Origin: Xanthomonas sp. NCPPB 1128
GTDB taxonomy: Bacteria; Pseudomonadota; Gammaproteobacteria; Xanthomonadales; Xanthomonadaceae
DNA length: 46,272 nt
NCBI RefSeq assembly: GCF_001043115.1
Contig: NZ_LFME01000036.1
Span: 1 to 46,272 of the forward strand
Direction: 5' to 3'
Below are positions 16,359 through 32,877 of the stretch, one piece after another; the stretch's first letter is position 1; every line of letters begins with the position of its first letter. The notes below the pieces were generated by a model, which saw nothing but the letters and a program-made list of their open reading frames with translations, was not told the DNA's origin and did no database searches. Both the position numbers and the translations under genes were made by a program.

Positions 16359-19331
16359 GTGGCAACCCATCCCTATTGCAAGCGCAAGGCGCTGTGCGCC
16401 GCCATTCTGGCCATCACCGGCCTCGCCGCCACCGCACCCGCGCTGGCCGGCACCGTACAGGGCGAACTCAAGGAGCGCAGCAGCGGCAAGCCCGCCGCGC
16501 ACGCCAAGGTCGCCATCGCCGGCACCGCGCTCAGCGCCGCCACCGACGCACAAGGCCGCTTCGCCATCGCCGACGTGCCGGCCGGGCAGTACGCGCTGCA
16601 ACTGGACTACCCCGGCTTCAGCGCGCCGGAAACCACCGTGCAGGTCGCCGACAGCGGCGCCGCCACGGTGTCCATCGCGCTGGACGAGGCCAAGCAGTTG
16701 CAGACCATCAGCGTGGCGGCCAATCGCTACGACGCCAGCACGCTGAAGATGAATTCCTCGAACACGGTGGACGTACTCTCGGCCAACGATCTTGAGCACA
16801 CCGCCGTGCACAACGTCGCCGAGGCGCTGGGCCTGATCGCCGGCATCAACATCACCTACAGCGGCTCGGGCTACTTCGGCGGCGTCGACGGCGCCGCGCG
16901 CGGCGAAGGCATGTTCGCCTCGGTGCGCGGCCTGCCCTCCGAATACAACGTCAACCTGATCGACGGCGTCACCGTCGCCCAGGGCATGCCGTACAGCCGC
17001 AGCGTGCAGTTGAGCCTGCTGCCGCCCTCGGGCCTGCAGACCATCGTCGCCAACAAGACCTCCACCGCCGACATGGACGGCGATGCGATCGGCGGCACCC
17101 TGGATTTCCGCACACCCACCGCCTACGACTACAAGGACGCCACCAGCGGCAGCGTCACCGTCAGCGGCCGCGTGGAGAGCCGCGCGCGCGACTACGGCGG
17201 CGACGGCCTCGGCGGCGGCCTGGCCGGCGAGTTCCAGCACAAGTTTGGCGACGAGCAGCAGTTCGGCTTCTACGCCAGTGCCTACTACGACTACCGCACC
17301 TCCACCAACAGCGAGGTGGCTGCGGCCACCAGCGCGCTCAACGACGGTTCCTGGAAATTCCTGCACGCCAACGCCGACGGCAGCAACGCCGCCGGCTACG
17401 CGCCGCAGGACAACCTGACCAGCACCGGCATGAACGTCGGCGTGGTCGCCGGCTGGGAGCGCCGCTACGGCGGCAACGCGGCCTTCGACTGGAACGTGGA
17501 CGAGACCCTGTCGGTGTACGCGCGCGCCACCTACGCCTACGCCAAGACCGACCAAGGCACCACCTTCGTGCAGTTGCTGCCGCAGGACGTCAGCTTCGTG
17601 CCGACCGCCACGCCCGGTGTGTATTCGCCCAACATCAACCGCATCGCCGCGCGCTTCTGGTACGAGACCAACCCGGAAATCGCCGACCTGGCCACGTTCC
17701 AGGTGGGCGCGCGCAAGACCGCCGGCAACTGGACGCTGTCGCCGAACCTGTTCTACAGCTTCGGCGACAACGACCGCCCCGACCACATCGAGATCGACGG
17801 GCGCGAGGACAAGTTCAGCCAGGCCAACTTCGCCTACTCCGGCAGCAGCCTGATGCGCTACGGCAGCGGCGCGTTCCCCTACCCGCAGCTGACCCCGGCG
17901 CTGCTGGCGCAGGTCAACAACATCCCCTCGCTGTACGCCAGCAGCTACGGCGAATCGACCAAGATCTACTCCGGGCAGAAGAAGGGCGGCGCCAAGTTCG
18001 ACGCGCGCTACGACTTCAGCGACGGCGCGCTGACCGCGTTGCAGTTCGGCGTGAAGTACAGCAAGAGCAGCCGCCACTACAGCAACCGGGACTGGTGGAC
18101 CGGCCCGGTGCCCGATGCCAGCACGCTGGGCGATCTGGGCATCTTCAACGGCGGCTACGCGGCGATTTTCCCCGGCAAGTACCACTGGGCCACGCCGCGG
18201 GTCAGCGAAGGCGCGGTGGCGCAGGTCATCGCCAACCACCTCACCGACGACGACCTGGACACCTGCGGCAGCGCGTTCTACGTCAACAACTACAACTGCA
18301 ACACGATGCGCGGCACCGAGGCGGTCAGCGCCGCCTACGCGATGGCCACCTTCAACGTCGGCAGCCTGGAAGTGGTGCCCGGCGTGCGCTTCGAGCACAC
18401 CAGCATCCACAACACCTTCTGGACCACGCCCACCGACAACAACGGCAACCAGCAGGTCGGCTACTTCGCCGCCAACAGCACGCACTACGACCAGCCGCTG
18501 CCGAGCGTGTTCCTGACCTGGCGTCCGGATAGCGCCAGCACCTACCGCGCGGCACTGTGGACCAGCTATACGCGGCCGGCGTTCGTGCAATTGGGCGGCG
18601 GCACCCAGATCAACATCTCCAACGGCATCACCACCATCACCCAGGGCAACCCGGACCTGAAGGCGATCACCTCGACCAACCTGGACCTGTCCGGCGAATG
18701 GGCGACCGACCATGGCGGATTCTTCTCGGTGGCCGGCTTCTACAAGCGCCTGCACCACTACATCTACGACGCCGGTTCCGGCCAGGCCAACTCGGGCACC
18801 AGCGGCAGCGGCACGGTGTTCTACCAGATGCCGACCAACGGCGGCGACGGCCGCGTGTACGGTGTGGAGGTCAGCGCGCGGCAGCGCTTCCAGGACCTGC
18901 CGGCGCCGTTCGACGGGCTGGGCGTCAGCGCCAATGCCACGCGCCAGCATGCGCATGCCGATCTGGGCATGGCCGGTTTCGAAGACGAGCAGATGCAGTC
19001 GGCGCCGAATGCGATGGCCAACCTGGAGCTGTTCTACGAGCGCTCGAAGTTCTCGGTGAACCTGAGCTACCACTTCAGCAGTTCCTATCTGCTGAACTAC
19101 GACTTCCTGCACCAGAACGCGCCGTGGGACGACCTGTGGGCGCGGCCGACGCGGCGGGTGGATCTACATGCGGGGTATCGGTTCGACAATGGAGTGAATG
19201 TGGATCTGTCGATCTCCAATCTCACCAAGGAATACAGTTACTGGGGCCATGTGGGCCGGCACAATCTGGCGGTGTCGGACATCGTGGATGCCGGCATGAT
19301 GACGCTGTTGACCGTCAAGTACGCGTTCTAG
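16359..19331 (+). CDS. TonB-dependent transporter with carboxypeptidase-regulatory-like N-domain
   Basis: 990-residue outer-membrane transporter. The signal peptide (about 1-28, hydrophobic ALCAAILAITGLAATAPALA) is followed by a carboxypeptidase-regulatory-like beta domain (about 30-110, with TDAQGRFAIADVPAGQYAL), then a plug (VLSANDLEHTAVHNVAEAL) and a barrel ending LLTVKYAF. This architecture differs from the first TBDT in the window, so they are not recent duplicates. The GTG at 16359 is chosen because GAGG lies 6 bases upstream and it gives a normal signal peptide; the frame opens at 16224. It heads the inserted GH35-permease-kinase-GH4 module, across an 0.84 kb repeat-rich gap, and probably imports that module's glycan. 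The substrate is unknown. Confidence 0.88.
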   Translation: MATHPYCKRKALCAAILAITGLAATAPALAGTVQGELKERSSGKPAAHAKVAIAGTALSAATDAQGRFAIADVPAGQYALQLDYPGFSAPETTVQVADSGAATVSIALDEAKQLQTISVAANRYDASTLKMNSSNTVDVLSANDLEHTAVHNVAEALGLIAGINITYSGSGYFGGVDGAARGEGMFASVRGLPSEYNVNLIDGVTVAQGMPYSRSVQLSLLPPSGLQTIVANKTSTADMDGDAIGGTLDFRTPTAYDYKDATSGSVTVSGRVESRARDYGGDGLGGGLAGEFQHKFGDEQQFGFYASAYYDYRTSTNSEVAAATSALNDGSWKFLHANADGSNAAGYAPQDNLTSTGMNVGVVAGWERRYGGNAAFDWNVDETLSVYARATYAYAKTDQGTTFVQLLPQDVSFVPTATPGVYSPNINRIAARFWYETNPEIADLATFQVGARKTAGNWTLSPNLFYSFGDNDRPDHIEIDGREDKFSQANFAYSGSSLMRYGSGAFPYPQLTPALLAQVNNIPSLYASSYGESTKIYSGQKKGGAKFDARYDFSDGALTALQFGVKYSKSSRHYSNRDWWTGPVPDASTLGDLGIFNGGYAAIFPGKYHWATPRVSEGAVAQVIANHLTDDDLDTCGSAFYVNNYNCNTMRGTEAVSAAYAMATFNVGSLEVVPGVRFEHTSIHNTFWTTPTDNNGNQQVGYFAANSTHYDQPLPSVFLTWRPDSASTYRAALWTSYTRPAFVQLGGGTQINISNGITTITQGNPDLKAITSTNLDLSGEWATDHGGFFSVAGFYKRLHHYIYDAGSGQANSGTSGSGTVFYQMPTNGGDGRVYGVEVSARQRFQDLPAPFDGLGVSANATRQHAHADLGMAGFEDEQMQSAPNAMANLELFYERSKFSVNLSYHFSSSYLLNYDFLHQNAPWDDLWARPTRRVDLHAGYRFDNGVNVDLSISNLTKEYSYWGHVGRHNLAVSDIVDAGMMTLLTVKYAF

Positions 19332-19380
19332 GGCGCGGCGTGCGCACGGGGATGCCATCGCGGAGCGTTGCCACGCTTCT

Positions 19381-19726
19381 TGTGGGAGGGACATCAGTCC
19401 CGACGGGCGTTGCCGATGCGGCCTGGATCAGGTTGCATCGGGAGCCCACTCAAGCAGCGCGCGCCTGGGTTGTCGTGGCACACGCCGTCACTCTTGTAGG
19501 AGCGGCTTCAGCCGCGACAGGCCTTACCGACTTCGCCTGGATCAGGCCTTTTGTGGGAGGGACTTCAGTCCCGACGGGCTTTCCCGGTCCGGCCCGGATC
19601 AGGCTGCATCAGCAGCTCGCTCGAGCAGCACGCGCCTCGGCTGTCGTAGGAGCGGCTTCAGCCGCGACAGGCTCTACCGACTCGACTGGAACAACGCCTT
19701 TTGTGGGAGGGACTTCAGTCCCGACG
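19381..19726 (+). repeat. Array of five alternating REP-like elements
   Basis: Type A copies (TGTGGGAGGGACTTCAG, then TCCCGACG) at 19381-19405, 19552-19576 and 19702-19726 alternate with type B copies (GTAGGAGCGGCTTCAG, then CCGCGACAG) at 19496-19520 and 19646-19670. The last two B-A pairs are exactly 150 bases apart, showing a tandem duplication of a B-A unit. Flanking bases are also partly shared. All copies point the same way, unlike the inverted pairs elsewhere. Confidence 0.85.
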
Positions 19727-19738
19727 GGCTTTACTGAG

Positions 19739-20037
19739 GATGCTGGAAAGCGAAGGCAAAAGCTTTCGCCTGACGGCGAGTCACTTTTCTTTGCTTGTGC
19801 AAAGAAAAGTAACCAAAAGAAAGCACACCCCGCCTTCGCGCCCGCTACGCGGGTTCGCTCCGCCGACGGGATTTTCGGACGGGGCATCCTGCCCCGACCG
19901 AAAACGGCGCACATCCCTGTGCGCCGCCCCCCTGCGGGGGGTTTTGCCCGCCAGCTCCGCCGCTGCGGAGGGGACCCGGGAAGAGCAAAAGCTGAAGAGC
20001 AACAGCAACAGCGGCAGCGGCAGCGGCAGCGGCAATA
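19739..20037 (+). repeat. Dispersed intergenic repeat ending in GGCAGC hexamers
   Basis: A run of nested palindromic blocks: the CTTTTC/GAAAAG pair around the text 'tttgcttgtgcaaa', the inverted pair GACGGGATTTTCGGACGGGG / CCCCGACCGAAAAC, GGCGCACATCCCTGTGCGCC, and CCCCCCTGCGGGGGG. It ends with several CAGCAA and GGCAGC units (about 20002-20032). From memory very similar blocks occur many times in Xanthomonas and relatives and are often mis-annotated as small proteins. Copy number cannot be seen in this window, where it occurs once. Confidence 0.6.
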
Positions 20038-20175
20038 CGAAGTTACTTCGTGGATCGACACCATCGATGCAGTTGGTGCCACTACGCCCCGCCTTGTTTC
20101 CTGCATCCAATACCCCTCCCCTTCTTTCGGGATTTCGGCCACAGCTGAGGTGCGCCGATCTTCCTGGAGCCTGCA

Positions 20176-22095
20176 ATGAAACGCCGCGCCTTCTGCCGAT
20201 TTGGGTTGCTGGCGCCGTTGGGATTGGCGGCGATGCCGATGCTGCGCGCGGCGGTGCCGGCATCAGCGCCGGTGCCGGACGGACGGCCACACACGTTTGG
20301 CTTCGCGCAAGGAAGCTTCACCTTGGACGGGCAGCCGTGGCAGATCCGCAGTGGCGAACTGCATCCGCTGCGGATCGCGAAGGCGGATTGGTTGCATCGG
20401 ATTCGCATGGCCAAGGCGATGGGGTTGAACACCATCGCGCTGTACCTGATGTGGAATGCGCTGGAAACGGCGCCTGGGCAGTTCGATCTGGACAGCGGCG
20501 AGCGCGACTTCGTCGGGTTCATCCGCCTGTGCCAGCAGGAGGGGCTGTGGGTGTACCTGCGACCGGGGCCGTATGTCTGCGCGGAGTGGACGCTGGGCGG
20601 GTTGCCACCGTATCTGCTGCGCGACGCGAACATCCGCCTGCGCGATCGCCACGATGCGCGCTACATGGCGGCGGTGGAACGCTACATCGGGGCGATCGCG
20701 CCGCGCATCGCGCCGTTGATGGCCAGTGCCGGCGGGCCGGTGCTGATGCTGCAGATCGAGAACGAGTATTCAATGCACGGCAGCGACGTCGGCTACCTGC
20801 AGGCGCTGGCCGCACTGTGGCGTGCGCATGGCGTCGAGGGGCCGTTCTCGCTGGCCGAAGGGCTCAAGGATCTGCGTCGGCGCCAGGCCATGCTGCCCGG
20901 TGCCGCGCTGGGACTGGATGGTCCCGACCTGCACGATCTGCGGGCGGCCACGGCCTTCGCCGGGCAGGCGCCGGTGTGGGTGTCCGAGGGCTACCCCGGC
21001 TGGCTCACGCACTGGGGCGAGCCGCAGTTCGCGCGCCGCGACTATGCGCCGCTGCTGCGCCGCATCGCCGCCGCCGGCTATTCGTTCAATCTGTACGTGG
21101 TGCACGGTGGCACCAACTTCGGCCTCAGCGCCGGAGCCAATGCCGAGGACGACGGCTCGCAGTTCCAGCCGGCGCTCACCAGCTACGACTACGGCGCGCC
21201 GATCGACGAAGCCGGCCGCGCCACGCCGGCGTACTTTGCGTTACGCCAGATCATCACTGCGCAGGCCGACACGCCGGCGCCGCCGGTACCGGCCGCACCG
21301 CGCCGCGCGCACTTCGAAGCGGTGCAGGCCACGCCCGTGGCCGCGCTATGGGACAACCTCGGCCCCGCGCTGCAGACCGACACCCCCATCGACAACCAGC
21401 GCCTGCTCGGCCAGGACCAGGGGCTGGTGCTGTATCGGCGGCGGATCGGCCCCGGCCAGGCGCTGCACCTGGGACAGGTGCACGACTACGCGGTGGCGCA
21501 TGTGGACGGGCGCGAGCTGGACCACGTGTCGCGGGTGCGGCATCCGCGCCTGCACAGCGCACTGCAGCTGCGCTTGCCCGATGCAGCAAAGGACACGCGC
21601 GATCTGGAGGTGCTGGTCGACAGCTTCGGCCACATCAACTTCGGCCCGGCGCTGGGCGATCGCAAGGGCCTGCTCGGTCCGGTACGGCTCGATGGACAGG
21701 AGCTGCATGGTTGGGAGGTACGCGGGCTGGCGCTGGACGCGGACCCGATGCCATCGCTGCGCCCGCTACAGGCGCCGCCGCAGCGCCCAGGCCTGTTCTT
21801 CGCCACCGAGTTCACCCTCGACCAGCCGGGCGACGTGCACCTGGACATGCGCGACTGGCGCAAGGGCTATCTGTGGGTCAACGGGCGCCTGCTCGGCCGC
21901 TACTGGGACATCGGCCCGCAGCAATGCCTCTATTGCCCCGGTGCCTGGCTGCGCGCCGGCGCCAACCAAGTGTTGATCCTCGATCTGCACCGCCTGCAGC
22001 CGGGCCAGGTGCACTGCGCCGATGGCCTGGTGCCCGCGCAGCCAACGCAGGCCATCGCTCCCCTCTCCTCCCCGCAGGATCGCGCATGCACATGA
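20176..22095 (+). CDS. GH35 beta-galactosidase-like enzyme of inserted module
   Basis: 639-residue GH35 enzyme, probably a beta-galactosidase (or beta-glucosaminidase-like member) in the periplasm. The leader MKRRAFCRFGLLAPLGL has a twin-arginine character. The barrel shows NTIALYLMWNALE, YLRPGPYVCAEW, the acid/base Glu197 in IENEY and the nucleophile Glu271 in WVSEGYPGW; C-terminal jelly-roll domains end near KGYLWVNGRLLGRYW. It is clearly different from the nixL GH35 at 30013, so the window has two GH35 enzymes. The ATG follows CTGGAGCCTGCA. Its end overlaps the permease gene by 10 bases, making it the first gene of a coupled operon. Confidence 0.88.
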   Translation: MKRRAFCRFGLLAPLGLAAMPMLRAAVPASAPVPDGRPHTFGFAQGSFTLDGQPWQIRSGELHPLRIAKADWLHRIRMAKAMGLNTIALYLMWNALETAPGQFDLDSGERDFVGFIRLCQQEGLWVYLRPGPYVCAEWTLGGLPPYLLRDANIRLRDRHDARYMAAVERYIGAIAPRIAPLMASAGGPVLMLQIENEYSMHGSDVGYLQALAALWRAHGVEGPFSLAEGLKDLRRRQAMLPGAALGLDGPDLHDLRAATAFAGQAPVWVSEGYPGWLTHWGEPQFARRDYAPLLRRIAAAGYSFNLYVVHGGTNFGLSAGANAEDDGSQFQPALTSYDYGAPIDEAGRATPAYFALRQIITAQADTPAPPVPAAPRRAHFEAVQATPVAALWDNLGPALQTDTPIDNQRLLGQDQGLVLYRRRIGPGQALHLGQVHDYAVAHVDGRELDHVSRVRHPRLHSALQLRLPDAAKDTRDLEVLVDSFGHINFGPALGDRKGLLGPVRLDGQELHGWEVRGLALDADPMPSLRPLQAPPQRPGLFFATEFTLDQPGDVHLDMRDWRKGYLWVNGRLLGRYWDIGPQQCLYCPGAWLRAGANQVLILDLHRLQPGQVHCADGLVPAQPTQAIAPLSSPQDRACT

Positions 22096-23462
22096 CGTCG
22101 CTCGCCGCCCCCGTCGCGTCCTCCGCCGAGGATCAGGGCGCGCCACCACGCACACTGGGATTCTGGAGCGCGCTGTCGGCCAACCTGCTCAACATGATCG
22201 GGATCGGCCCGTTCATCACCATTCCGCTGGCGCTGTCGGCGCTGGCCGGGCCGGCAGTCTTGCTGGGCTGGGTGGTCGGCGCGCTGCTGTGCCTGTGCGA
22301 CGGCCTGGTGTGGGCCGAACTGGGCTCGGCGATCCCGCGCTCGGGCGGGCCGTACCACTACCTGCGCGAGGCCTATGGCCGCGACCGCGCCGGGCGCCTG
22401 TTCGGTTTCCTGTACCTGTGGCAGACGCTGCTGACCGCGCCGCTGTCGGTGGCCGCGGCCGCGGTCGGCTGCGCACAGTACCTGGCCTACCTGATGCCCG
22501 GGCTGAGCCACGCCGCGCTCACCGGCATCGCCATGGCGCTATGCCTGTTCAACACCGCGCTGCTGTACCGGCAGGTGCGCTCGGTGCAGGTGCTGTCGCT
22601 GCTGGTCAGCGCGGTAGTGATCGCCGCGTGCGTGTGGATCGTGCTCAGCGGCGCGCTGCATTTCGACATGGCGCTGGCGCGCGAGTTCCTGCAGGCGCGG
22701 CCCGCTTCGCCGCACGGCTTCTGGCTGGGCTTCGGCGCGGTGGCGCTGATCGCGGTGTACGACTACGGCGGCTACAACAACGTGTGCATGCTCGGCGGCG
22801 AGATCCGCAAGCCGCGCCGCACGATTCCGCGCGCGGTGCTGTGGTCGATCCCGATCGTGGCGGTGCTATACCTGGGCTTGAACGTGACCCTGCTCGGCGT
22901 GCTGCCGTGGCAGCAGGCGGCGCAGTCCAAGGCGGTGGTCGCCGATTTCATGCAGGCCATCTATGGCCCGGTGGGCAGCACCGTGGCGGTGGCGCTGATC
23001 GTGCTCGCCAGTTGGGGCTCGGCGTTGGTGGTGCTGCTGGGCTATTCGCGGGTGCCGTATGCGGCGGCGGCATCCGGCCAGTTCTTCGGCGTGTTCGCGC
23101 GGCTGCATCCGCGCGGGCGCTTTCCCACCGTGTCGCTGCTGTTCGTCGGCATTACATCGGCGCTGGCCTGTCCGCTGTCGCTGGACGACCTGATCGCCAC
23201 GCTGATGATCATCCAGATCCTGTTCCAGTTCCTGGCGCAATGCCTGGCGGTGGTGCTGCTGCGGCGGCAGCCGCGGCGCCGCGCCCGCTTCGCCATGCCG
23301 CTGTATCCGTGGCCGCTGCTGATCAGCGTCTGCGGCTGGCTGGCGCTGCTGGCCACCAGTCCGCTGCCGCGGTTGCTGGCGGCGATGCTGGCGCTGTGCG
23401 CGGGCACCGCGCTCTATCTCATCCAGGCCAAACGCGAGGCAGCATGGCCCTTCCAGCAATGA
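22086..23462 (+). CDS. APC-superfamily permease, probably sugar or glyco-amino acid
   Basis: 458-residue inner-membrane transporter with about 12 hydrophobic segments. The first helix carries NMIGIGPFITIPLAL, the unwound-helix motif of the amino acid-polyamine-organocation (LeuT-fold) superfamily, and GSAIPRSGGPYHYLREAYG is the conserved APC loop after helix 2. Family members usually carry amino acids, but the operon encodes a glycosidase, a sugar kinase and a phospho-glycosidase, so a sugar or glycosylated amino acid is a better guess here. AGGA lies 6 bases before the ATG at 22086; the ATG at 22092 would make an ATGA overlap with GH35. The stop overlaps the kinase start by four bases. Confidence 0.85.
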   Translation: MHMTSLAAPVASSAEDQGAPPRTLGFWSALSANLLNMIGIGPFITIPLALSALAGPAVLLGWVVGALLCLCDGLVWAELGSAIPRSGGPYHYLREAYGRDRAGRLFGFLYLWQTLLTAPLSVAAAAVGCAQYLAYLMPGLSHAALTGIAMALCLFNTALLYRQVRSVQVLSLLVSAVVIAACVWIVLSGALHFDMALAREFLQARPASPHGFWLGFGAVALIAVYDYGGYNNVCMLGGEIRKPRRTIPRAVLWSIPIVAVLYLGLNVTLLGVLPWQQAAQSKAVVADFMQAIYGPVGSTVAVALIVLASWGSALVVLLGYSRVPYAAAASGQFFGVFARLHPRGRFPTVSLLFVGITSALACPLSLDDLIATLMIIQILFQFLAQCLAVVLLRRQPRRRARFAMPLYPWPLLISVCGWLALLATSPLPRLLAAMLALCAGTALYLIQAKREAAWPFQQ

Positions 23463-24394
23463 AAACCCACGACGTCGCGGTGGTCGGCGAGGTCTATCTC
23501 GACCACATCTTCAGCGGCTTCAGCACCTGGCCCGGGCCGGGCGAGGAAGCGATGGCGCGGCACTACCACCTCGATCTCGGCGGCGGCACCGTCAACACCG
23601 CCTGCGGGCTGGCGCGGCTCGGACGCACGGTCACGCTGATCGGCGCGATCGGCGCCGGCGACCGTGACTGGTTCGCGCAGCGCCTGGGCGAATTTGGCGT
23701 CGGCACCGAGGGCCTGATCGACCACCCCGCCGGTACCGGCGTCACCGCCAGCGTGTCGCTGCAAGACGATCGTTCGTTCTTCACCTACCCCGGCGCCAAT
23801 GCCGAGTTGGAACCACTGCTGGGCAGCGCCGCCGCGCTGGAGGCGATGTGCGCCGCGCGCCATGTGCACTTCGCCCTGCCGCTGCCGGCGACGCTGGCGC
23901 GCACGCTGCTGCCGGCGTTGCGCGCGGCCGGCTGCAGCACCTCGCTGGACGTGGGCTTCAACCCGGCTTGGCTGGCCGATCCGGACAACCACGCCACCTG
24001 CCGCGCGGTCGATCACTTCCTGCCCAACCAGAAGGAGGCGGCACTGGCCGGTTGCGCCGGCGACGACACTGCGTCCTGCGGCGCCTGGGCGCAGGCGCTG
24101 GGCCTGGCGCAGGTGACGATCAAGCTCGGCGGTGCCGGCGCCTGCGTGGTCGATGCGGCCGGCGCGCGGCGAGTCGCCGCCCCCGTGGTTGCAGTGCAGG
24201 ACACCACCGGCGCTGGCGACGCCTTCGATGCCGGCTTCATCGACGCGCTGCTGGACCACCTTTCCCTCGATGCCTGCGCGCAGCGCGGCTGCCTGTGCGG
24301 CGCCGCCTGCTGCACCGCGCTCGGCGCGCTCGACGGCCTTCCCGATCCCCCACGTCTCAGGAGTCTCCATGAGCAGTTCCTTTCCCAACCGTAA
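23459..24394 (+). CDS. PfkB-family sugar kinase
   Basis: 311-residue cytoplasmic ribokinase/PfkB kinase. It shows the N-terminal substrate signature LGGGTVNTACGLARLG, the beta-clasp region and the C-terminal signature DTTGAGDAFDAGFIDAL, whose Asp in GAGD is the catalytic base of the family; N-x-x-E is represented by NQKEAAL. Substrates in the family include fructose, ribose, 2-keto-gluconate and nucleosides, so sequence alone does not decide. Between a permease and a GH4 enzyme it could phosphorylate the imported saccharide or the released monosaccharide. The start forms an ATGA overlap with the permease, and the end overlaps GH4 by 26 bases. Confidence 0.88.
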   Translation: MKTHDVAVVGEVYLDHIFSGFSTWPGPGEEAMARHYHLDLGGGTVNTACGLARLGRTVTLIGAIGAGDRDWFAQRLGEFGVGTEGLIDHPAGTGVTASVSLQDDRSFFTYPGANAELEPLLGSAAALEAMCAARHVHFALPLPATLARTLLPALRAAGCSTSLDVGFNPAWLADPDNHATCRAVDHFLPNQKEAALAGCAGDDTASCGAWAQALGLAQVTIKLGGAGACVVDAAGARRVAAPVVAVQDTTGAGDAFDAGFIDALLDHLSLDACAQRGCLCGAACCTALGALDGLPDPPRLRSLHEQFLSQP

Positions 24395-25811
24395 ACTCGC
24401 CCTGATCGGCGGCGGTGGCGTGCGTGCGCCGCTGGTGGTGTACGGCGTCAACGATGCCGCCGAAGCGCTCGGTGCGCGCGAGATCGTGCTCTACGATCCG
24501 GACCAGGAGCGGCTGGCGCTGATGGTCGCGCTGGGCCGCGCGGTGGTCGCCGAGTTCGGTGGCGAGCTGCAGGTCAACGCGGCCAGTTCGGCGGAAGCGG
24601 CGATCGACGGCGCGCACTTCGTGCTCAACAGCATCCGCATCGGCGGCATCCACCAGCGCGCCACCGACGAGCACACCATCATCCGCCATGGCTACGCCGG
24701 GCAGGAGACCACCGGCCCCGGCGGCGTCGCCAAGGCGCTGCGCACGGTGCCGGTGGCGATCGAGCAGGCGCGCATGGTGGAGCGGCTCAGCCCCGACGCC
24801 TGGCTGGTCAGCTTCACCAACCCGGCCGGGCTGATTACCCAGGCCATCAGCCGCCACACCCGCGCGCGCGTGGTCGGCATCTGCGACACGCCGGTGGAGC
24901 TGTTCCACAACATCGCCCGCGCGCTCGGCGAGCCGCCGGCGGACGTGGACTGCGAGTACGTCGGCCTCAACCACCTGGGCTGGATCCGCGCGGTGCGCGT
25001 GCGCGGCGAGGATGTGCTCGACCGCATCCTCGCCGACGACGCGATCCTGCGCCAGCTGTACCTGGCACCGTTGTTCGACTTCGACATGCTGCGCACGCTG
25101 CGGCTGATCCCCACCGAATACCTGTACTTCTACTACGAGCGCAGCCGCGCCCTGGAGAACCAGCGCGCCAGCGGCGCCAGCCGCGCCAGCGAGATCGAAC
25201 GGCTCAACCACACCCTGATCGCCGACCTGCGCAGCCGCCTCAACGCCGGCGACGGCAGCGGCGCGGTGCAGACCTACGCCGCCTACCTGCAGCAGCGCTC
25301 CGGCTCGTACATGCGGCTGGAGGCCGAGGCCGGCTCGGCCTTCGCCGACGATCTCGCGCCGCAGCCGGATCCGTTCCGCGCCAGTACCGGCTACCACCGC
25401 ATCGCCGTGGACGTGATGAGCGCACTGACCGGCGCGCTCCCCGGGCGGCACGTGGTCAACGTGCGCAACCAGGGCTGCATGCCGGAACTGGCCGACGACG
25501 ACATCGTGGAGATCTCCTCCACCATCGAGCGCGACCGCATCACCCCGCTGCCGGCACGGCCGCTACCCGAGGCGATCCAGGGCCTGGTGCGCACGGTCAA
25601 GGCCTACGAGCACGCCGCCATCGACGCCGCACTCAGCGGCAGCCACCTGGAAGCGTGCAAGGCGATGCTGATCCACCCGGCCATCGGCGAATGGAGCCCG
25701 TCGCGGCGGCTGCTGGAAGCCTTGTTCGGCCATGCCGGCAACGGCGACGACGACGGCGAGTGCGTGTGCTCCGGACCGATGCACTGGCATGGCGCGCATC
25801 ACCCCCACTGA
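24369..25811 (+). CDS. GH4 NAD-dependent 6-phospho-beta-glycosidase-like enzyme
   Basis: 480-residue GH4 enzyme. GH4 hydrolyses glycosides by transient oxidation with bound NAD and a divalent metal. Visible features: Rossmann glycine motif LIGGGGVRAPL, VLYDPDQERL, LVSFTNPAGLITQA, the metal-site cysteine segment GICDTPVEL, GLNHLGWI as in the 6-phospho-beta-glucosidase branch, and NVRNQGCMPELADDDIVEIS. There is no signal peptide, so it is cytoplasmic. The ATG has AGGAG 8 bases upstream, inside the kinase gene. No PTS component is encoded nearby, which is unusual for this family; the neighbouring PfkB kinase might supply the phosphate, or the enzyme may accept unphosphorylated substrate. The C-terminus is His-rich (MHWHGAHHPH). 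Confidence 0.87.
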   Translation: MSSSFPNRKLALIGGGGVRAPLVVYGVNDAAEALGAREIVLYDPDQERLALMVALGRAVVAEFGGELQVNAASSAEAAIDGAHFVLNSIRIGGIHQRATDEHTIIRHGYAGQETTGPGGVAKALRTVPVAIEQARMVERLSPDAWLVSFTNPAGLITQAISRHTRARVVGICDTPVELFHNIARALGEPPADVDCEYVGLNHLGWIRAVRVRGEDVLDRILADDAILRQLYLAPLFDFDMLRTLRLIPTEYLYFYYERSRALENQRASGASRASEIERLNHTLIADLRSRLNAGDGSGAVQTYAAYLQQRSGSYMRLEAEAGSAFADDLAPQPDPFRASTGYHRIAVDVMSALTGALPGRHVVNVRNQGCMPELADDDIVEISSTIERDRITPLPARPLPEAIQGLVRTVKAYEHAAIDAALSGSHLEACKAMLIHPAIGEWSPSRRLLEALFGHAGNGDDDGECVCSGPMHWHGAHHPH

Positions 25812-25983: not shown

Positions 25984-27426
25984 ATGCCCACCCGCCGCGA
26001 CATCCTCCACTTCCTCGGCGCCAGCGCCGGCGCCGCGCTGCTGAGCGGGGCGCTGCCGGCCGCCGCCGCGGCATCGGCCTCCGCCGCCCTGCCCAGCAAG
26101 CGGCCGCCGCCGGGCAAGCGCCGCTTCGTCAGCGCCGCGGTCGAGCGTCAGTTGCGCACGGTCAAGGCCGGCATCGGCGATCCGCGCCTGGCCTGGCTGT
26201 TCGAGAACTGCTACCCCAACACCCTCGACACCACGGTCGAGACCGGTACCCGCAACGGCAAGCCGGACACCTTCGTCATCACCGGCGACATCGAGGCGAT
26301 GTGGCTGCGCGATTCTTCCGCGCAGGTGCATCCCTACGTGCCGCTGGCCAAGCGCGACCCGGCGCTGCGGCGCATGTTCCATGGGTTGATCCAGCGCCAG
26401 GCCGCCTGCATCCGCCTGGATCCCTACGCCAACGCGTTCCTGCCCGACGGCACCAGCCAGCGCCTGAAGTGGTCGGTGGCCGACATCACCGAGATGAAGC
26501 CCGGCGTCGGCGAGCGCAAATGGGAAGTGGACTCGCTGTGCTACCCGATCCGCCTGGCGCACGAGTACTGGCGCGCCAGCGGCGATGCCGCGCCGTTCGA
26601 CGACGACTGGCGCGAGGCGATGCACGTGGTGGTGCGTACCTTCCGCGAACAGCAGCGTCTGCACGGCCGCGGCCCGTACAGTTTCCAGCGGCCCTCGCCG
26701 CTGGCCACCGAGACCCTGGTGCTGGACGGCTACGGGCAGCCGACCCGGCCCAACGGCATGATCCACTCGATGTTCCGCCCGTCCGACGACGCCTGCCTGT
26801 ATCCGCTGTTCGTCCCCGCCAACCTGTTCGCGGTGACCTCGCTGCGGCAACTGGCGGCGATGAGCGAGGCGCTGCACCACGACACCGCCTTCGCCGGCGA
26901 GTGCCGCGCCCTGGCCGACGAGGTCGAGACGGCCACCCGAACGTTCGGGCAGATGCGCGACGCCGACGGCCAGCCGTTCTGGGCCTACGAGGTGGACGGC
27001 TACGGCAACCAGTTGTTCATCGACGACGCCAACGCCCCCGGCCTGCTGAGCCTGGCCTACCTGGGCTGCTGCGACCGCCGCGATCCGGTGTTCCTGCGCA
27101 CCCGGCAACTGGCCTGGAGCGAGCGCAACCCGTACTTCTCCCGCGGCCGCGCCGCCGAAGGCGTGGGCAGCCCGCACAGCGGCCTGGGCACGATCTGGCC
27201 GATGTCGCTGATGCAGTACGCCCTGGCCAGCGACGACGACGCGCAGATCCGCCAGTGCCTGCAGTGGCTCAAGACCACCGACGCCGGCAGCGGCTTCATG
27301 CACGAAGCCTTCGACAAAGACAACCCGAACACCTTCACCCGCGACTGGTTCGCCTGGGCCAACACCCTGTTCGGCGAACTGATCATCGACCTGCACCAGC
27401 GCAAGCCGCACCTGCTGAAGGCCTGA
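25984..27426 (+). CDS. nixJ: GH125 exo-alpha-1,6-mannosidase, Tat-exported
   Basis: 480-residue GH125 enzyme, expected to remove the alpha-1,6-mannose of the N-glycan core. The leader TRRDILHFLGASAGAALLSG has a twin-arginine motif. Family features are the (alpha/alpha)6 barrel with GDIEAMWLRDSSAQVHPYV, DPYANAFL, KWEVDSLCYP, RPSDDACLYPLFVPAN and NTFTRDWFAWANTLFGE. The ATG at 25984 follows GGAGCGTTCC; an upstream extension of the frame has no family support. A type A REP inverted pair separates it from GH92. In X. campestris this member acts after GH92 and GH3 have trimmed the glycan, per published work I recall. Confidence 0.9.
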   Translation: MPTRRDILHFLGASAGAALLSGALPAAAAASASAALPSKRPPPGKRRFVSAAVERQLRTVKAGIGDPRLAWLFENCYPNTLDTTVETGTRNGKPDTFVITGDIEAMWLRDSSAQVHPYVPLAKRDPALRRMFHGLIQRQAACIRLDPYANAFLPDGTSQRLKWSVADITEMKPGVGERKWEVDSLCYPIRLAHEYWRASGDAAPFDDDWREAMHVVVRTFREQQRLHGRGPYSFQRPSPLATETLVLDGYGQPTRPNGMIHSMFRPSDDACLYPLFVPANLFAVTSLRQLAAMSEALHHDTAFAGECRALADEVETATRTFGQMRDADGQPFWAYEVDGYGNQLFIDDANAPGLLSLAYLGCCDRRDPVFLRTRQLAWSERNPYFSRGRAAEGVGSPHSGLGTIWPMSLMQYALASDDDAQIRQCLQWLKTTDAGSGFMHEAFDKDNPNTFTRDWFAWANTLFGELIIDLHQRKPHLLKA

Positions 27427-27441
27427 CGCGATCACTGCATG

Positions 27442-27507
27442 TGTGGGAGGGACTTCAGTCCCGACGGGCCTTACAGACAAAGCGTCGGGACTGAAGTCCC
27501 TCCCGCA
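27442..27507. repeat. REP-type inverted pair (type A) between GH125 and GH92
   Basis: Arms 27442-27466 and 27483-27507 are inverted copies (one mismatch near the end) around a 16-base centre, so the transcript would fold into a long hairpin. Same family as 13032-13098. Confidence 0.85.
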
Positions 27508-27554: not shown

Positions 27555-29897
27555 ATGGCCACACGACGCGGTTTCCTGCAGGGCGCCATCGCCCTGGCCC
27601 TGTTCGGCAGCAGCGGCATCGCGCGGCTGGCGCAGGCACGCGCCGGCAGCTACGCGCTGCCGGCCGATGCACGCGCCAAGGCCGAGCTCACCCGCAACGT
27701 CGACGTGTTCATCGGCACCGGCGGCCACGGCCACACCTTCCCCGGCGCCACGCTGCCGTTCGGCATGGTGCAACTGAGCCCGGACACCTACAACGCCGAT
27801 TGGGACGCCTGCTCCGGCTACCACGCCGACGACAGCTCGATCATGGGCTTCTCGCACACCCACCTGTCCGGCACCGGCGTCGGCGACATGCTCGATTTCC
27901 TGGTGGTGCCGGCCACCGGCCCGGTGAAGCTGCAGCCCGGCACGCGCGAGAACCCCGACGCCGGCTACCGCTCGCGCTACGACCACGCCGACGAAGCCGC
28001 CTCGCCCGGCTACTACCGCGTGCGCCTGAAGGACAGCGGCGTGCATGCCGAACTCACCGCCACCGCGCGCGCCGGCCTGCACCGCTACCACTTCCCCAAG
28101 GGCAAGCCGGCACACCTGCTGCTGGACCTGTGCCATGGCATGCAGGACAAGCCCGAGATCCCCACCCGCGTCGAGGACGCCAGCCTGCGCCTGGTCGACG
28201 CGCAGACCGTCACCGGCGGCCGCCGCGTCTACCAGTGGGCCAAGGGCCGCTACATCTACTTCGCCATGCGCCTGTCGCGGCCGTTCGCCAGCGCGCAACT
28301 GTATGCCGACGACCAGCCGCTGGCCGCGACTGCGCGCAGTGCCGACGGCACGCGCCTGAAACTGGCCCTGCACTATCCCGATGCCGCCGAGGCGCCGCTG
28401 CTGGTCAAGGTCGGCCTCTCCGCGGTCAGCGCCGACAACGCACTGGCCAACCTCGACGCGGAACTGCCCGACTTCGACTTCGCCCGCGTGCACGCCGCCG
28501 CCGTGGCCGAATGGGAGAAGGAACTGGGGCGGGTGCGCATCGACAGCGACGACGAGGCGCAGCGCCGCATCTTCTACACCGCGCTGTACCACAGCCTGAT
28601 CGCGCCGACCCTGTTCAGCGACACCGACGGCCGCTACCGCGGCATGGACCTGCAGGTGCACCAGGCGCCGGCCGGCTACCACAACTACAGCACCTACTCG
28701 CTGTGGGACACCTACCGCGCCCTGCATCCCTTGCTGACCCTGGTGCAGCCCGAGCGCGTGCCCGATCTGGTGCAGTGCCTGGTGCGCGGCGCCCACGAAT
28801 CGCCGCAGGGCGTCGCCATCTGGCCGCTGCAGGGCGTGGAGACCGACTGCATGATCGGCTACCACTCCGCCGTGGTGCTGGCCGAGGCGCATGCCAAGGG
28901 CTTCACCGGCATCGACTGGAAGGCCGCCTACCCGGCCTGGCGCAAGCGCGCGATGGACGACGACGTGCACGGCCTGGCGCTGTACCGGCAGATGGGCTAC
29001 ATCCCCTGCGACAAGGTCGACGAATCGGTCAGCCGCACCCTGGAATTCGCCTACGACGACTGGGCGGTGGCGCACCTGGCGCAGGCGGTCGGCGCCGACG
29101 ACGACGCCAAGCACCTGCGCGAACGCTCGCGCCAGTACCGCAACGTGTTCAACCGCGAAAGCACCTTCGTGCAGCCGCGCCTGAGCGACGGCCAGTGGGC
29201 CACCCCGTTCGATCCGCGCGCGATGGGCCACAGCGCGCAGTGGCGCGACTTCACCGAGTCCAACGCCTGGCAGGCCACCTTCCTCAACCAGCACGACCTG
29301 TACGGCTACATGGACCTGTTCGGCGGCCGCGATGCGTTCGTCGCCAAGCTCGACGAACTGTTCACCACCAGCTCCGAGCTGCCGGCGGACGCACCGCCGG
29401 ACATCGACGGCATGGTTGGCCAGTACGCGCACGGCAACGAACCCAGCCACCACGTCGCCTACCTCTACGCCTACGCCGGGCAGCCGTACAAGACCCAGGC
29501 GATGGTGCGGCGGCTGCTGCGCGAGCAGTACCACGACGCGCGCAACGGCCTGTCCGGCAACGAGGACTGCGGGCAGATGAGCGCCTGGTTCGTGCTCAGC
29601 GCGCTGGGCCTGTACGCGGTGGACCCGGTCAGCGCCAACTACGTGCTGGGCAGCCCGCTGTTCAAGCGCGCGCAACTGGACGTGGGCAACGGCCGCACCC
29701 TGCGCATCGTCGCCCACGGCAACAGCGCGACCAACGTCTATATCCAAGGTGCACGCTGGAACGGCAAGCCCTACACCCGCAGCTGGCTGCGCCATGCCGA
29801 CCTCGCCGCCGGCGGTACGCTGGAACTGGAGATGGGTCCGAAGCCCAACACCGCGTTCGGTGCGGGCAAGGACGATCTGCCACCGTCCTTTAGCTGA
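27555..29897 (+). CDS. nixK: GH92 alpha-mannosidase, Tat-exported
   Basis: 780-residue calcium-dependent GH92 exo-alpha-mannosidase. The leader ATRRGFLQGAIALALFGSSG carries a good twin-arginine motif. Family marks in order: IGTGGHGHTFPGATLPFGMV, FSHTHLSGTG, the central WDTYRALHPL, GNEPSHHVAYLYAY and GNEDCGQMSAWFVLSALGLY with the catalytic acid/base region. In the X. campestris system the GH92 removes alpha-1,3-mannose first, which opens the glycan to GH3 and GH125. GAGGA precedes the ATG. It is bracketed by REP inverted pairs on both sides (type A before, type B after), so it may be differentially protected or terminated within the operon. Confidence 0.92.
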   Translation: MATRRGFLQGAIALALFGSSGIARLAQARAGSYALPADARAKAELTRNVDVFIGTGGHGHTFPGATLPFGMVQLSPDTYNADWDACSGYHADDSSIMGFSHTHLSGTGVGDMLDFLVVPATGPVKLQPGTRENPDAGYRSRYDHADEAASPGYYRVRLKDSGVHAELTATARAGLHRYHFPKGKPAHLLLDLCHGMQDKPEIPTRVEDASLRLVDAQTVTGGRRVYQWAKGRYIYFAMRLSRPFASAQLYADDQPLAATARSADGTRLKLALHYPDAAEAPLLVKVGLSAVSADNALANLDAELPDFDFARVHAAAVAEWEKELGRVRIDSDDEAQRRIFYTALYHSLIAPTLFSDTDGRYRGMDLQVHQAPAGYHNYSTYSLWDTYRALHPLLTLVQPERVPDLVQCLVRGAHESPQGVAIWPLQGVETDCMIGYHSAVVLAEAHAKGFTGIDWKAAYPAWRKRAMDDDVHGLALYRQMGYIPCDKVDESVSRTLEFAYDDWAVAHLAQAVGADDDAKHLRERSRQYRNVFNRESTFVQPRLSDGQWATPFDPRAMGHSAQWRDFTESNAWQATFLNQHDLYGYMDLFGGRDAFVAKLDELFTTSSELPADAPPDIDGMVGQYAHGNEPSHHVAYLYAYAGQPYKTQAMVRRLLREQYHDARNGLSGNEDCGQMSAWFVLSALGLYAVDPVSANYVLGSPLFKRAQLDVGNGRTLRIVAHGNSATNVYIQGARWNGKPYTRSWLRHADLAAGGTLELEMGPKPNTAFGAGKDDLPPSFS

Positions 29898-29909: not shown

Positions 29910-29975
29910 GTAGGAGCGGCTTCAGCCGCGACCGGACCTTCCCGGGAACCCGGTCGCGGCTGAAGCCGCTCCTAC
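29910..29975. repeat. REP-type inverted pair (type B) between GH92 and GH35
   Basis: Arms 29910-29935 (begins GTAGGAGCGGCTTCAG) and 29950-29975 are exact inverted copies around a 14-base centre. Type B also occurs in the 19.4-19.7 kb array and at 44755-44819. Confidence 0.85.
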
Positions 29976-30012: not shown

Positions 30013-31857
30013 ATGCTGCGTCGCACCCTGTCCGCCCTTGCCCTGTCGCTCCTGCTGTCGCTCCCGGCAGCCGCGCAGCCGACACACACCACCGCCTGGC
30101 CCGCCTTCGCCACCCAGGGCGATCACTTCATCCGCGACGGCAAGCCGTACCAGGTCATCTCCGGCGCCATCCACTTCCAGCGCATCCCGCGCGCCTACTG
30201 GAAAGACCGCCTGCAGAAGGCGCGCGCGATGGGCCTGAACACGGTGGAGACCTACGTGTTCTGGAACCTGGTGGAACCGCGGCCGGGCCAGTTCGACTTC
30301 ACCGGCAACAACGACATCGCCGCCTTCGTCGACGAAGCCGCCGCGCAGGGCCTCAACGTGATCCTGCGCCCCGGCCCGTACGTGTGCGCCGAGTGGGAAG
30401 CCGGCGGCTATCCCGCGTGGCTGTTCGCCGAACCCGGCATGCGCGTGCGCAGCCAGGACCCGCGCTTCCTCGCCGCCAGCCAGGCCTACCTCGACGCCCT
30501 CGCCGCCCAGGTCAAGCCGCGGCTCAACGGCAACGGCGGCCCGATCGTCGCCGTGCAGGTGGAGAACGAATACGGCTCCTACGGCGACGACCACGCCTAT
30601 ATGCGCCGCAACCGCGCCATGTTCGTCCAGGCCGGCTTCGACAAGGCCCTGCTGTTCACCGCCGACGGCCCCGACGTGCTCGCCAACGGCACCCTGCCGG
30701 ATACGCTGGCCGTGGTGAACTTCGCCCCGGGCGACGCCAAGAACGCCTTCGAGACCCTGGCCAAGTTCCGCCCCGGGCAACCGCAGATGGTCGGCGAATA
30801 CTGGGCCGGCTGGTTCGACCAATGGGGCGAGAAGCACGCGGCCACCGATGCCGCCAAGCAGGCCAGCGAATTCGAATGGATCCTGCGCCAGGGCCACTCC
30901 GCCAACCTCTACATGTTCGTCGGCGGCACCAGCTTCGGCTTCATGAATGGCGCCAACTTCCAGAAGAACCCCAGCGACCACTACGCCCCGCAGACCACCA
31001 GCTACGACTACGACGCCGTGCTCGACGAAGCCGGCCGCCCCACCCCCAAGTTCACCCTGTTCCGCGACGCCATCCAGCGCGTCACCGGCATCGCCCCGCC
31101 GGCGCTACCCAAGCCGATCCGCTTCGCCGAGTTGCCGGCCACGCCGCTGCGCGAATCCGCCTCGCTCTGGGACAACCTGCCCGCCCCGGCCGCCACCACC
31201 GACACCCCGCAGCCGATGGAGCGCTACGGCCAGGCCTACGGCTACATCCTTTACCGCACCACCGTCACCGGCCCGCGCAAGGGCAGCCTGTACCTGGGCG
31301 AGGTGCGCGACTACGCCCGCGTCTACGTCGATCGCACCCTGGCCGGCAGCGCGGAGCGCCGCCTGCAGCAAGTGGCGGTGGACGTGGACATCCCCGCCGG
31401 CCCCCACACCCTCGACGTGCTGGTGGAGAACACCGGCCGCATCAACTACGGCGCCCACCTGCCCGACGGCCAAGCCGGCCTGGTCGACCCCGTGCTACTC
31501 GACGGCAAGCCCCTCACCGGCTGGCAGACCTTCCCCCTGCCGATGGACGACCCGAGCAAGCTCACTGGCTGGACCACCACCAAGGTCGACGGCCCCGCCT
31601 TCCACCGCGGCACGTTGAAGATCGGCACGCCTGCCGATACGTTCCTGGACATGCAGGCCTTCGGCAAAGGCTTCGCCTGGGCCAATGGCCATAACCTGGG
31701 AAGGCACTGGAATATCGGGCCGCAGCGGGCGTTGTATTTTCCAGCGCCGTGGCAGCGGAAGGGGAGGAATAGCGTGATTGTGTTTGATTTGGATGGTGTG
31801 GCGGAGGCGAGTGTGCGTGGGGTTAAGGGGCAGGTTTGGAGTACGCCCAGTAACTGA
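30013..31857 (+). CDS. nixL: GH35 beta-galactosidase, exported
   Basis: 614-residue GH35 enzyme with signal peptide MLRRTLSALALSLLLSLPAAA. The barrel contains NTVETYVFWNLVEP, ILRPGPYVCAEWEAGGYP, the acid/base Glu186 in VENEYGSYG and the nucleophile Glu262 in GEYWAGWFDQWG; C-terminal beta domains contain LDVLVENTGRINYG and KGFAWANGHNLGRHW. Expected role is removal of beta-galactose from Lewis-a-type antennae of plant N-glycans. It is the last gene of the cluster; a strong hairpin terminator follows. Codon usage becomes visibly more AT-rich in the last 40 codons, near the border with the low-GC region. Confidence 0.9.
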   Translation: MLRRTLSALALSLLLSLPAAAQPTHTTAWPAFATQGDHFIRDGKPYQVISGAIHFQRIPRAYWKDRLQKARAMGLNTVETYVFWNLVEPRPGQFDFTGNNDIAAFVDEAAAQGLNVILRPGPYVCAEWEAGGYPAWLFAEPGMRVRSQDPRFLAASQAYLDALAAQVKPRLNGNGGPIVAVQVENEYGSYGDDHAYMRRNRAMFVQAGFDKALLFTADGPDVLANGTLPDTLAVVNFAPGDAKNAFETLAKFRPGQPQMVGEYWAGWFDQWGEKHAATDAAKQASEFEWILRQGHSANLYMFVGGTSFGFMNGANFQKNPSDHYAPQTTSYDYDAVLDEAGRPTPKFTLFRDAIQRVTGIAPPALPKPIRFAELPATPLRESASLWDNLPAPAATTDTPQPMERYGQAYGYILYRTTVTGPRKGSLYLGEVRDYARVYVDRTLAGSAERRLQQVAVDVDIPAGPHTLDVLVENTGRINYGAHLPDGQAGLVDPVLLDGKPLTGWQTFPLPMDDPSKLTGWTTTKVDGPAFHRGTLKIGTPADTFLDMQAFGKGFAWANGHNLGRHWNIGPQRALYFPAPWQRKGRNSVIVFDLDGVAEASVRGVKGQVWSTPSN

Positions 31858-32172: not shown

Positions 32173-32877
32173 GTGAACCTCGTGAGAAGAGCATGGGATT
32201 GGCTTACGTCCGCTGGCACAGCCAATCGCCCCAAAAAGAATGCGATGCAAAAGCTACAAATGGGTGTGCGCGTGACGGCGAAGTGTCGCTTCAACGCTTC
32301 AGAGCGCCTTCAACGTCAAGGACGCTTTGCATTCTTCACAAATACCTTTCTATCGGTCGCCCTCATACTCATCCCGCTACTGCAGAACGCAAACATTGCA
32401 TTGAGGTTCTCAGGAACAGTGCTAAATATGATGCAGATATTTTTTGCTGTTTGCGTACTGGTATACTCGATAGTCATAGGGACCGCTCGGTACGAACTAC
32501 GAGGCGAGAATCTTACTGAGTGCGGAGATAAGCTAAAGGAACTATCCCGAGACATAGACAAAGCTCAAATGAACAACCAAGAGATCACTCAGGAGCAGTA
32601 TGATCGCTTCAATGAGAAGTACTCATTAATAATCTCCGATACGGAAAATCACACCCGAGGAGATTATGAGCTGGCGCGATTAGAGATGAGTAGTGAGTAT
32701 CATGTCAGCGGCTTCCCTCGATTCATGATTTGGCTAAGAGCTCGATCCGAGCGAATGATGCCATTCGCCATCCCAGTGCTCATGAACATTTTAGTGCTCG
32801 TATTTATCACCGATATGTTAGGCATTACTCAAGTCATCAGTCCGCACCTGAAGTCGGCCGCCCTTGCTGCCAGCTAA
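32173..32877 (+). CDS. SLATT-like two-TM membrane protein
   Basis: 234 residues. After a basic N-terminal part with RVTAKCRFNASERLQRQGRFAFF come two hydrophobic helices (about 57-73 and 81-101, the second VLNMMQIFFAVCVLVYSIVIG), then a soluble helical region containing ARYELRGENLTECGDKLKELSRDID, and a last hydrophobic segment near the C-terminus (about 197-216). The RFNASERL - two TM - YxxRxENLxxCxxxLxxL pattern is that of SLATT domains, predicted membrane effectors of nucleotide-sensing conflict or defence systems. The GTG has AAGAAGA upstream; the ATG at 32245 is an alternative. Base composition is much lower in GC than its neighbours. Function here is inferred from domain resemblance only. 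Confidence 0.7.
   Translation: MNLVRRAWDWLTSAGTANRPKKNAMQKLQMGVRVTAKCRFNASERLQRQGRFAFFTNTFLSVALILIPLLQNANIALRFSGTVLNMMQIFFAVCVLVYSIVIGTARYELRGENLTECGDKLKELSRDIDKAQMNNQEITQEQYDRFNEKYSLIISDTENHTRGDYELARLEMSSEYHVSGFPRFMIWLRARSERMMPFAIPVLMNILVLVFITDMLGITQVISPHLKSAALAAS

Follow-up and report, generated by a model that had tools for sequence, protein, structure and literature searches.

Gene content of the locus

A 46,272-nucleotide stretch of DNA from Xanthomonas sp. NCPPB 1128 (the window, to whose positions coordinates refer unless another locus is named) carries five adjacent genes at 16359-25811, here called the module. They encode a TonB-dependent receptor (TBDT2) and proteins of glycoside hydrolase family 35 (GH35; other GH families are named likewise), the APC permease family, the PfkB kinase family and GH4 (Table 1). 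Open reading frames and Pfam domains confirmed an original prediction, made from the sequence alone, that these genes lie between a GH3 and a GH125 gene and overlap by 10 (GH35/APC), 4 (APC/PfkB) and 26 bases (PfkB/GH4), the first overlap being 4 bases if the APC start at 22092 is taken. A scan of 15 window proteins (268 to 31857) detected no domain of the phosphotransferase system (PTS), as had also been predicted, whereas PTS-dependent GH4 operons carry PTS components beside GH4. TBDT2 matched the model TIGR01782 above its cut-off, and the solved chains nearest to the module GH35 were the beta-galactosidases 8fa5, 3d3a, 6eon and 4mad. A signal peptide, judged by eye, suggests that GH35 is periplasmic; none was seen in the PfkB and GH4 proteins. 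Because a gap with repetitive extragenic palindromic (REP)-like elements separates the receptor gene from GH35, the tight operon comprises GH35-APC-PfkB-GH4.

Upstream of the module the window encodes GH29, GH18, GH20, GH2 and GH3, which agrees with the nix cluster. Together with GH125 and GH92 these surroundings resemble the nix cluster of Xanthomonas campestris, from which the five-gene module is separable. In that N-glycan cluster, as Dupoiron is said to have described it in 2015, the module has no part. The review PMC10154615 states that an X. campestris GH92 acts on plant N-glycans and that GH125 has alpha1,6 specificity.

Table 1. Features of the module and the adjoining glycan genes (window positions).
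Feature	Position	Strand	Remarks
GH3, upstream of module	12995-15727
TBDT2 (TonB-dependent receptor, predicted outer-membrane import)	16359..19331	+	GTG start, 990 amino acids (aa); Plug + TonB barrel + CarboxypepD_reg
Intergenic region, five REP-like palindromes	19332..20175	.	844-bp gap, TBDT2 to GH35
GH35, exo-beta-galactosidase type by similarity	20176..22095	+	639 aa; PF01301 288.8 bits
APC-family (AA_permease_2) inner-membrane permease	22092..23462 (alternative ATG start 22086)	+	PF13520 154.5 bits
PfkB/ribokinase-family sugar kinase	23459..24394	+	311 aa; PF00294 146 bits
GH4, CDTP subgroup	24369..25811	+	480 aa; PF02056 + PF11975
GH125 alpha-mannosidase (nix cluster)	25984..27426	+	domain scan
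GH92 alpha-mannosidase (nix cluster)	27555..29897	+	domain scan
Second GH35, downstream of GH92	30013..31857	+	PF01301 403.2 bits

Conservation, probable loss and remnants of the module

A scan of named genomes yielded 324 relatives; the 80 best loci among them were retained for neighbourhood counts. These comprised 33 gammaproteobacterial loci (18 from Xanthomonas and 15 from the Rhodanobacteraceae genera Dyella, Luteibacter and Pinirhizobacter), 16 of alphaproteobacterial type, one of them with a gammaproteobacterial label as a metagenome-assembled genome (MAG), and 31 acidobacterial or other loci. PfkB adjoined GH4 in 78 of the 80 (exceptions: L104 and L116 (contig end)) and an APC permease gene accompanied GH4 in 71, so that the APC-PfkB-GH4 unit spans Proteobacteria and Acidobacteria. 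The gene overlaps are conserved among relatives, the operon being mostly overlapping, and the three proteins diverge in step. GH35 was absent from 6/15 Rhodanobacteraceae loci, which leaves APC-PfkB-GH4 as the core. Of the four genes whose co-occurrence the original prediction had proposed to check, these three mostly stay together, also where no nix core genes were seen in the examined stretches, and GH35 does not always join them.

TBDT2 orthologues occurred with the module in 17/18 Xanthomonas and 14/15 Rhodanobacteraceae loci, and at 44-68% identity in 11 of 14 stretches tested from Luteibacter, Dyella, Sphingomonas, Novosphingobium, Nitrospirillum and Asticcacaulis. Identities of 44-54%, compared with about 25% for other receptors, were found in Sphingomonas (L078, L079, L084), Novosphingobium (L115, L123), Nitrospirillum (L211) and Asticcacaulis (L091, L103). 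The three stretches in which none was found were L086, L080 and its continuation L210; the Nitrospirillum copy is the one in L211. The module also occurs beside glycan genes, and not only in contexts unrelated to them: GH125/GH92 stood beside it in 17/18 Xanthomonas loci, GH125 homologues (63-64% identity) near it in Nitrospirillum L211, there also by Pfam, and in the Asticcacaulis MAG L103, and GH92 homologues near it across Sphingomonas, Novosphingobium, Asticcacaulis and Nitrospirillum (L044, L045, L078, L086, L091, L103, L115, L121, L123, L211). The nix core (GH18, GH20, GH3 and the nix GH2) was not seen in the examined stretches of Luteibacter, Dyella, Sphingomonas, Nitrospirillum, Asticcacaulis and Acidobacteria.

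Among 20 genomes of the genus Xanthomonas, all encoded GH125 and 13 the module GH4. The module lay inside the nix cluster in eight (the window and L024-L030), and away from it in five (L031-L035), and its GH4 was absent from seven; the module does not accompany every nix cluster. Two of the five outside places were examined further. In L031 the module is flanked by a FadL-type gene on one side and on the other by a proline dehydrogenase gene, past which lie cytochrome oxidase genes; an oxidase gene was also near it in L033. In the 12 genomes without the module in the cluster, GH3 and GH125 were neighbours (in L205 a GH3 fragment), and no remnant was detected at E 1e-3. The contiguous arrangement which the original prediction supposed for X. 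campestris agrees with that of these 12 relatives. A match was obtained in 20 of the 297 genomes of the wider family, in three of them through short decayed pieces only. Of these three, G297 and G217 have a short GH4 piece between GH3 and GH125 (L042:9913-10044 and L043:10024-10119; E 3e-6 and 2e-5), and in G187 pieces of TBDT2, PfkB and GH4 lie directly upstream of GH125 in a stretch without GH3 (L209:1361-2373). These decayed pieces indicate that the module probably once occupied this junction in lineages where it now appears uninterrupted. The arrangement in the window need not be a recent insertion; the remnants point to losses instead and make it doubtful that the module was inserted, as the original prediction had put it. 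A separate rearrangement of the nix cluster was seen at L205:9859-15820, where GH2 is present twice and fragments of GH3 and GH20 adjoin GH125.

A putative PTS-free route to GH4 substrates

The GH4 protein has both Pfam GH4 domains above cut-off, the GH4 fold and the Cys and His metal-ligand positions, and is probably a phospho-glycosidase of the NAD/Mn type. The structures nearest to it were 1s6y, 5c3m and 1up6, and phospho-glycosidases ranked nearest in the fold search, which suggests that it acts on phospho-glycosides. Its motif is CDTP, shared by the other five rows of a six-row set collected by protein search prior to the scan. All 65 GH4 relatives read from the scan set have it too, a universality that is partly built in because one of the two scan patterns includes CDTP. 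The motif CNxP defines the 6-phospho-beta-glucosidase subgroup of GH4 (CNIP in ChbF, CNVP in Thermotoga maritima BglT) and is not that of the module GH4, which shares the Asp of the alpha-type CDMP of GlvG with Met replaced by Thr. For the PfkB kinase every listed NCBIfam model remained below cut-off, with ribokinase models scoring highest, and the nearest folds were ribokinase-type monosaccharide and nucleoside kinases. An identity as 2-keto-3-deoxygluconate or inositol-pathway kinase was put lower, as the protein scored well short of the cut-offs for KdgK and IolC. The fold searches confirmed the families, and no substrate emerged from them.

The simplest way to explain a permease, a kinase and a phospho-type GH4 that stay together in a mostly overlapping operon is import followed by phosphorylation and then cleavage, which we regard as fairly probable. 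A glycan fragment would pass the outer membrane via TBDT2 and lose its terminal beta-galactose to the periplasmic GH35. The APC permease would then import the remaining small glycoside, the PfkB kinase would phosphorylate it with ATP, and GH4 would split the product by NAD/Mn-dependent oxidation and elimination. That a permease, a kinase and GH4 work together without a PTS, as the original prediction proposed, gains support, as the unit is kept across phyla and its GH4 falls among phospho-glycosidases. The opposite order, with GH4 splitting an unphosphorylated glycoside and PfkB then phosphorylating the freed sugar or inositol, would suit the ribokinase-like scores (all below cut-off) and fold of the kinase as well as the G-loop GGGGVRxP, found in 48/65 relatives and unlike the GGGSTFTP/GGGSSYTP of GlvG and ChbF. 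It seems unlikely to us: the GH4 model is nearest to phospho-specific members, and no two genes of the set are linked more tightly than PfkB and GH4.

Known systems resemble the module in parts. In Klebsiella the ROK kinase BglK phosphorylates beta-glucosides, which a GH4 6-phospho-beta-glucosidase then cleaves; as proposed here, an ATP-dependent kinase and not a PTS feeds the phospho-glycosidase. The module differs from this type in having a PfkB kinase together with an APC permease and a TonB-dependent receptor. The Frl system combines the APC permease FrlA with the PfkB 6-kinase FrlD for a sugar-amine conjugate and thus shares two families with the module. The module proteins reached only 95.2 of the 800 bits of the FrlA cut-off and 53.3 of the 247 bits of the FrlD cut-off, however, and GH4 takes the place of the Frl deglycase. 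In the Escherichia coli Chb system (PTS, ChbG, ChbF) GH4 splits a phosphorylated amino-sugar disaccharide after deacetylation, and many acidobacterial relatives of the module have a PIG-L de-N-acetylase-family protein; APC and PfkB stand in place of the PTS, PIG-L in place of ChbG and CDTP in place of CNIP. BglK is used as a reagent in PMC10628242. The unit, conserved in both Proteobacteria and Acidobacteria, would supply GH4 with substrates without a PTS, and its neighbour genes make the substrate testable.

Neighbouring genes and the putative glycosyl-inositol substrate

Inositol catabolism (iol) genes flanked the module in 12 of the 16 alphaproteobacterial-type loci (L078, L080-L083, L085-L087, L091, L115, L122, L123), and the deposited annotation places them with it on plasmids of Sphingomonas parapaucimobilis and Novosphingobium capsulatum. 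They were also near it in L101, L110 and L112 (iolB only) among the 31 acidobacterial-type or other loci, and iolB adjoins the module in L193 from the acidobacterial class. An iol match in L124 (25%) was discarded as a PfkB look-alike. The layouts varied. In Nitrospirillum and Asticcacaulis L091 iolBEDC-RpiR diverges from iolG-APC-PfkB-GH4; in Sphingomonas L078 and Novosphingobium GH92-TBDT-RpiR diverges from APC-PfkB-GH4, and the iol genes lie beyond; L101 and L110 have the order PfkB-GH4-LacI-iolB-iolD-iolE-iolG. We further sampled the order of Sphingomonas (centred on G301) and the class of Terriglobus (G302) without regard to neighbour genes. In the former GH4 occurred in 2/396 genomes, one being the search centre, and IolD in 16/396; both GH4 carriers have IolD about 12 kb away. 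In the latter GH4 occurred in 23/299, looser hits included, and IolD in 45/299; 10 of the 23 GH4 carriers have IolD, none of them within 48 kb of GH4 on one contig.

Other neighbours bear on the glycan itself. PIG-L homologues were present in 14/30 and 11/16 acidobacterial loci (two overlapping sets), the Pfam domain PF02585 being found in the one acidobacterial protein tested. One acidobacterial genome has a second PIG-L gene downstream of GH4 (L181:10969-13800), and a second PfkB kinase heads many acidobacterial operons of the order PfkB2-TBDT-PIG-L-APC-PfkB-GH4 (L100:162-1136 and relatives). A phospholipase C gene was near the module in L079, L080, L081, L084 and L103, and some alphaproteobacterial-type loci also have GH92, GH125, beta-galactosidase and phospholipase C. 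GH92, GH125 and the TBDT2 orthologue adjoin the iol block in Nitrospirillum (G300) and surround the module in the Asticcacaulis MAG. In L079 and L084 an ethanolamine permease, the sole one above cut-off in both genomes, directly follows GH4; after it come genes for an M61 peptidase, for phospholipase C and for a GH2, a relative of which in Nitrospirillum exceeds the GalA beta-galactosidase cut-off.

We read the block as a self-contained uptake-and-splitting cassette, and the neighbours make a glycosyl-inositol of some kind its most likely substrate, with a probability of roughly 0.45. The inositol genes hint at a glycoside of inositol, PIG-L at an amino sugar, whether acetylated or free, GH92, GH125 and beta-galactosidase at a glycan bearing mannose and galactose, and phospholipase C with the ethanolamine permease at a lipid anchor. 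The best candidate would be glucosaminyl-alpha-inositol, split into a sugar phosphate and inositol; this moiety is the core of glycosylphosphatidylinositol (GPI) anchors, including those of plants, and also of mycothiol. The glucosaminyl-inositol of GPI would unite these clues, although the GPI core in particular is a somewhat unlikely substrate. Rather unlikely as well is an undescribed bacterial pathway with the module as its core that consumes the glycan-inositol of GPI anchors or of closely related molecules. In such a pathway phospholipase C and peptidases would release the glycan-inositol and TBDT2 would import it, beta-galactosidase and GH92/GH125 would strip galactose and mannose, and the APC permease would take up glucosaminyl-inositol. 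PfkB and an alpha-specific GH4 might then yield glucosamine-6-phosphate and inositol, the latter used by iol genes where present. The titles and abstract openings listed by literature searches, which did not extend to most subscription journals, contained no glycosyl-inositol, GPI or APC/PfkB/GH4 catabolic pathway, a weak negative.

Several observations weigh against a glycosyl-inositol. The main weakness is that IolD is missing from the tested Xanthomonas genomes and most close acidobacterial carriers: it was above cut-off in 0/8 Xanthomonas genomes (G000 included) and not in Terriglobus, and in only 4/16 close acidobacterial-class GH4 carriers (E <=2.6e-150; background 45/299). The tested genomes of Luteibacter and Dyella do encode IolD, though away from the module. 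Nearby iol genes were seen in only 3/31 acidobacterial-type or other loci and in 0/33 Xanthomonas/Rhodanobacteraceae loci, and the 12/16 are not independent, with five Nitrospirillum, one same-layout Azospirillum-labelled and two Novosphingobium loci among them. No single examined locus shows all substrate clues together. TBDT2 was not found in L086, and the receptor in S. parapaucimobilis L121 is another one. The phospholipase C exceeds the cut-off of a phosphocholine-specific model; the ethanolamine permease and M61 peptidase were seen in no more than two loci, themselves close relatives, and ordinary phospholipid would equally account for ethanolamine and phospholipase C. Taken as a whole, the GH4 resembles beta-type enzymes most, the CDTP of the wider set stems in part from the search pattern, and two alpha-fucosidase-family genes near the Nitrospirillum module fit glycoproteins. 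Carriers without IolD could use the sugar phosphate only. It is the IolD distribution that holds our estimate below one half, keeps the GPI core lower still and leaves a role in N-glycan breakdown as a live rival.

In that rival, the cassette finishes plant N-glycans, importing a GlcNAc- or Gal-disaccharide or the chitobiose core for phosphorylation and cleavage by GH4. Its position in the nix cluster in 8/20 genus genomes and beside GH125/GH92 in 17/18 Xanthomonas loci, the fucosidase-family genes of Nitrospirillum and the handling of chitobiose in E. coli by the GH4 ChbF and a deacetylase, there with a PTS, speak for it. Yet the module is apart from nix genes in five genus genomes, the nix core was unseen in the examined stretches of other genera, the motif is CDTP and not CNxP, and the inositol neighbours are left unexplained, so that the N-glycan add-on for a beta-linked disaccharide in the original prediction is weakened and now appears improbable. 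The same machine might alternatively process a mannosyl-inositol. Phosphatidylinositol mannosides and lipomannan of actinobacteria and inositol sphingolipids of fungi and plants are sources of such glycosides; the co-occurrence of alpha-mannosidases (GH92, GH125) with phospholipase C and iol genes and the alpha-type Asp of the GH4 motif would fit, but PIG-L proteins and beta-galactosidases would find no use, and we consider it quite unlikely. Two other inositol glycosides were put lower. For galactinol, an alpha-galactoside, no alpha-galactosidase was noticed beside the module, no search having been aimed at one; the glucuronyl-inositol of plant sphingolipids has a 6-carboxyl that cannot be 6-phosphorylated, and no alpha-glucuronidase was noticed there, again with no search aimed at it. 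If a glycosyl-inositol is indeed the substrate, the module would show a way in which plant-associated and soil bacteria reuse glycans from the membrane anchors of plants, fungi or actinobacteria. A function would also be gained for a GH4 subgroup of which the two plasmid members seen are annotated only as 6-phospho-beta-glucosidase or hypothetical protein.

Some further features lie in or near the module loci. A Nitrospirillum gene beside a ROK kinase gene (L211:2028-4394) encodes an unassigned 788-aa protein with a sub-cut-off GH20b match only; it matched neither a PDB sequence at E 0.01 nor an NCBIfam family at 1e-8. REP-like palindromes in the window (13033-13097, 19382-19724, 27443-27506, 29910-29975, 44755-44776) numbered 12 at up to two mismatches against 0.01 expected, and one exact form had 118 copies in the genome (control 0). 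Because the longest GH3 reading frame has a pair of them within its start, GH3 probably begins further downstream. Annotated Qat anti-phage genes are near the module on a Sphingomonas plasmid (L044:24174-26284), and in the window a SLATT_5 (2TM effector) gene (32173-32877) and a DUF6414 gene (33197-34240), possibly a defence pair, adjoin the glycan cluster.

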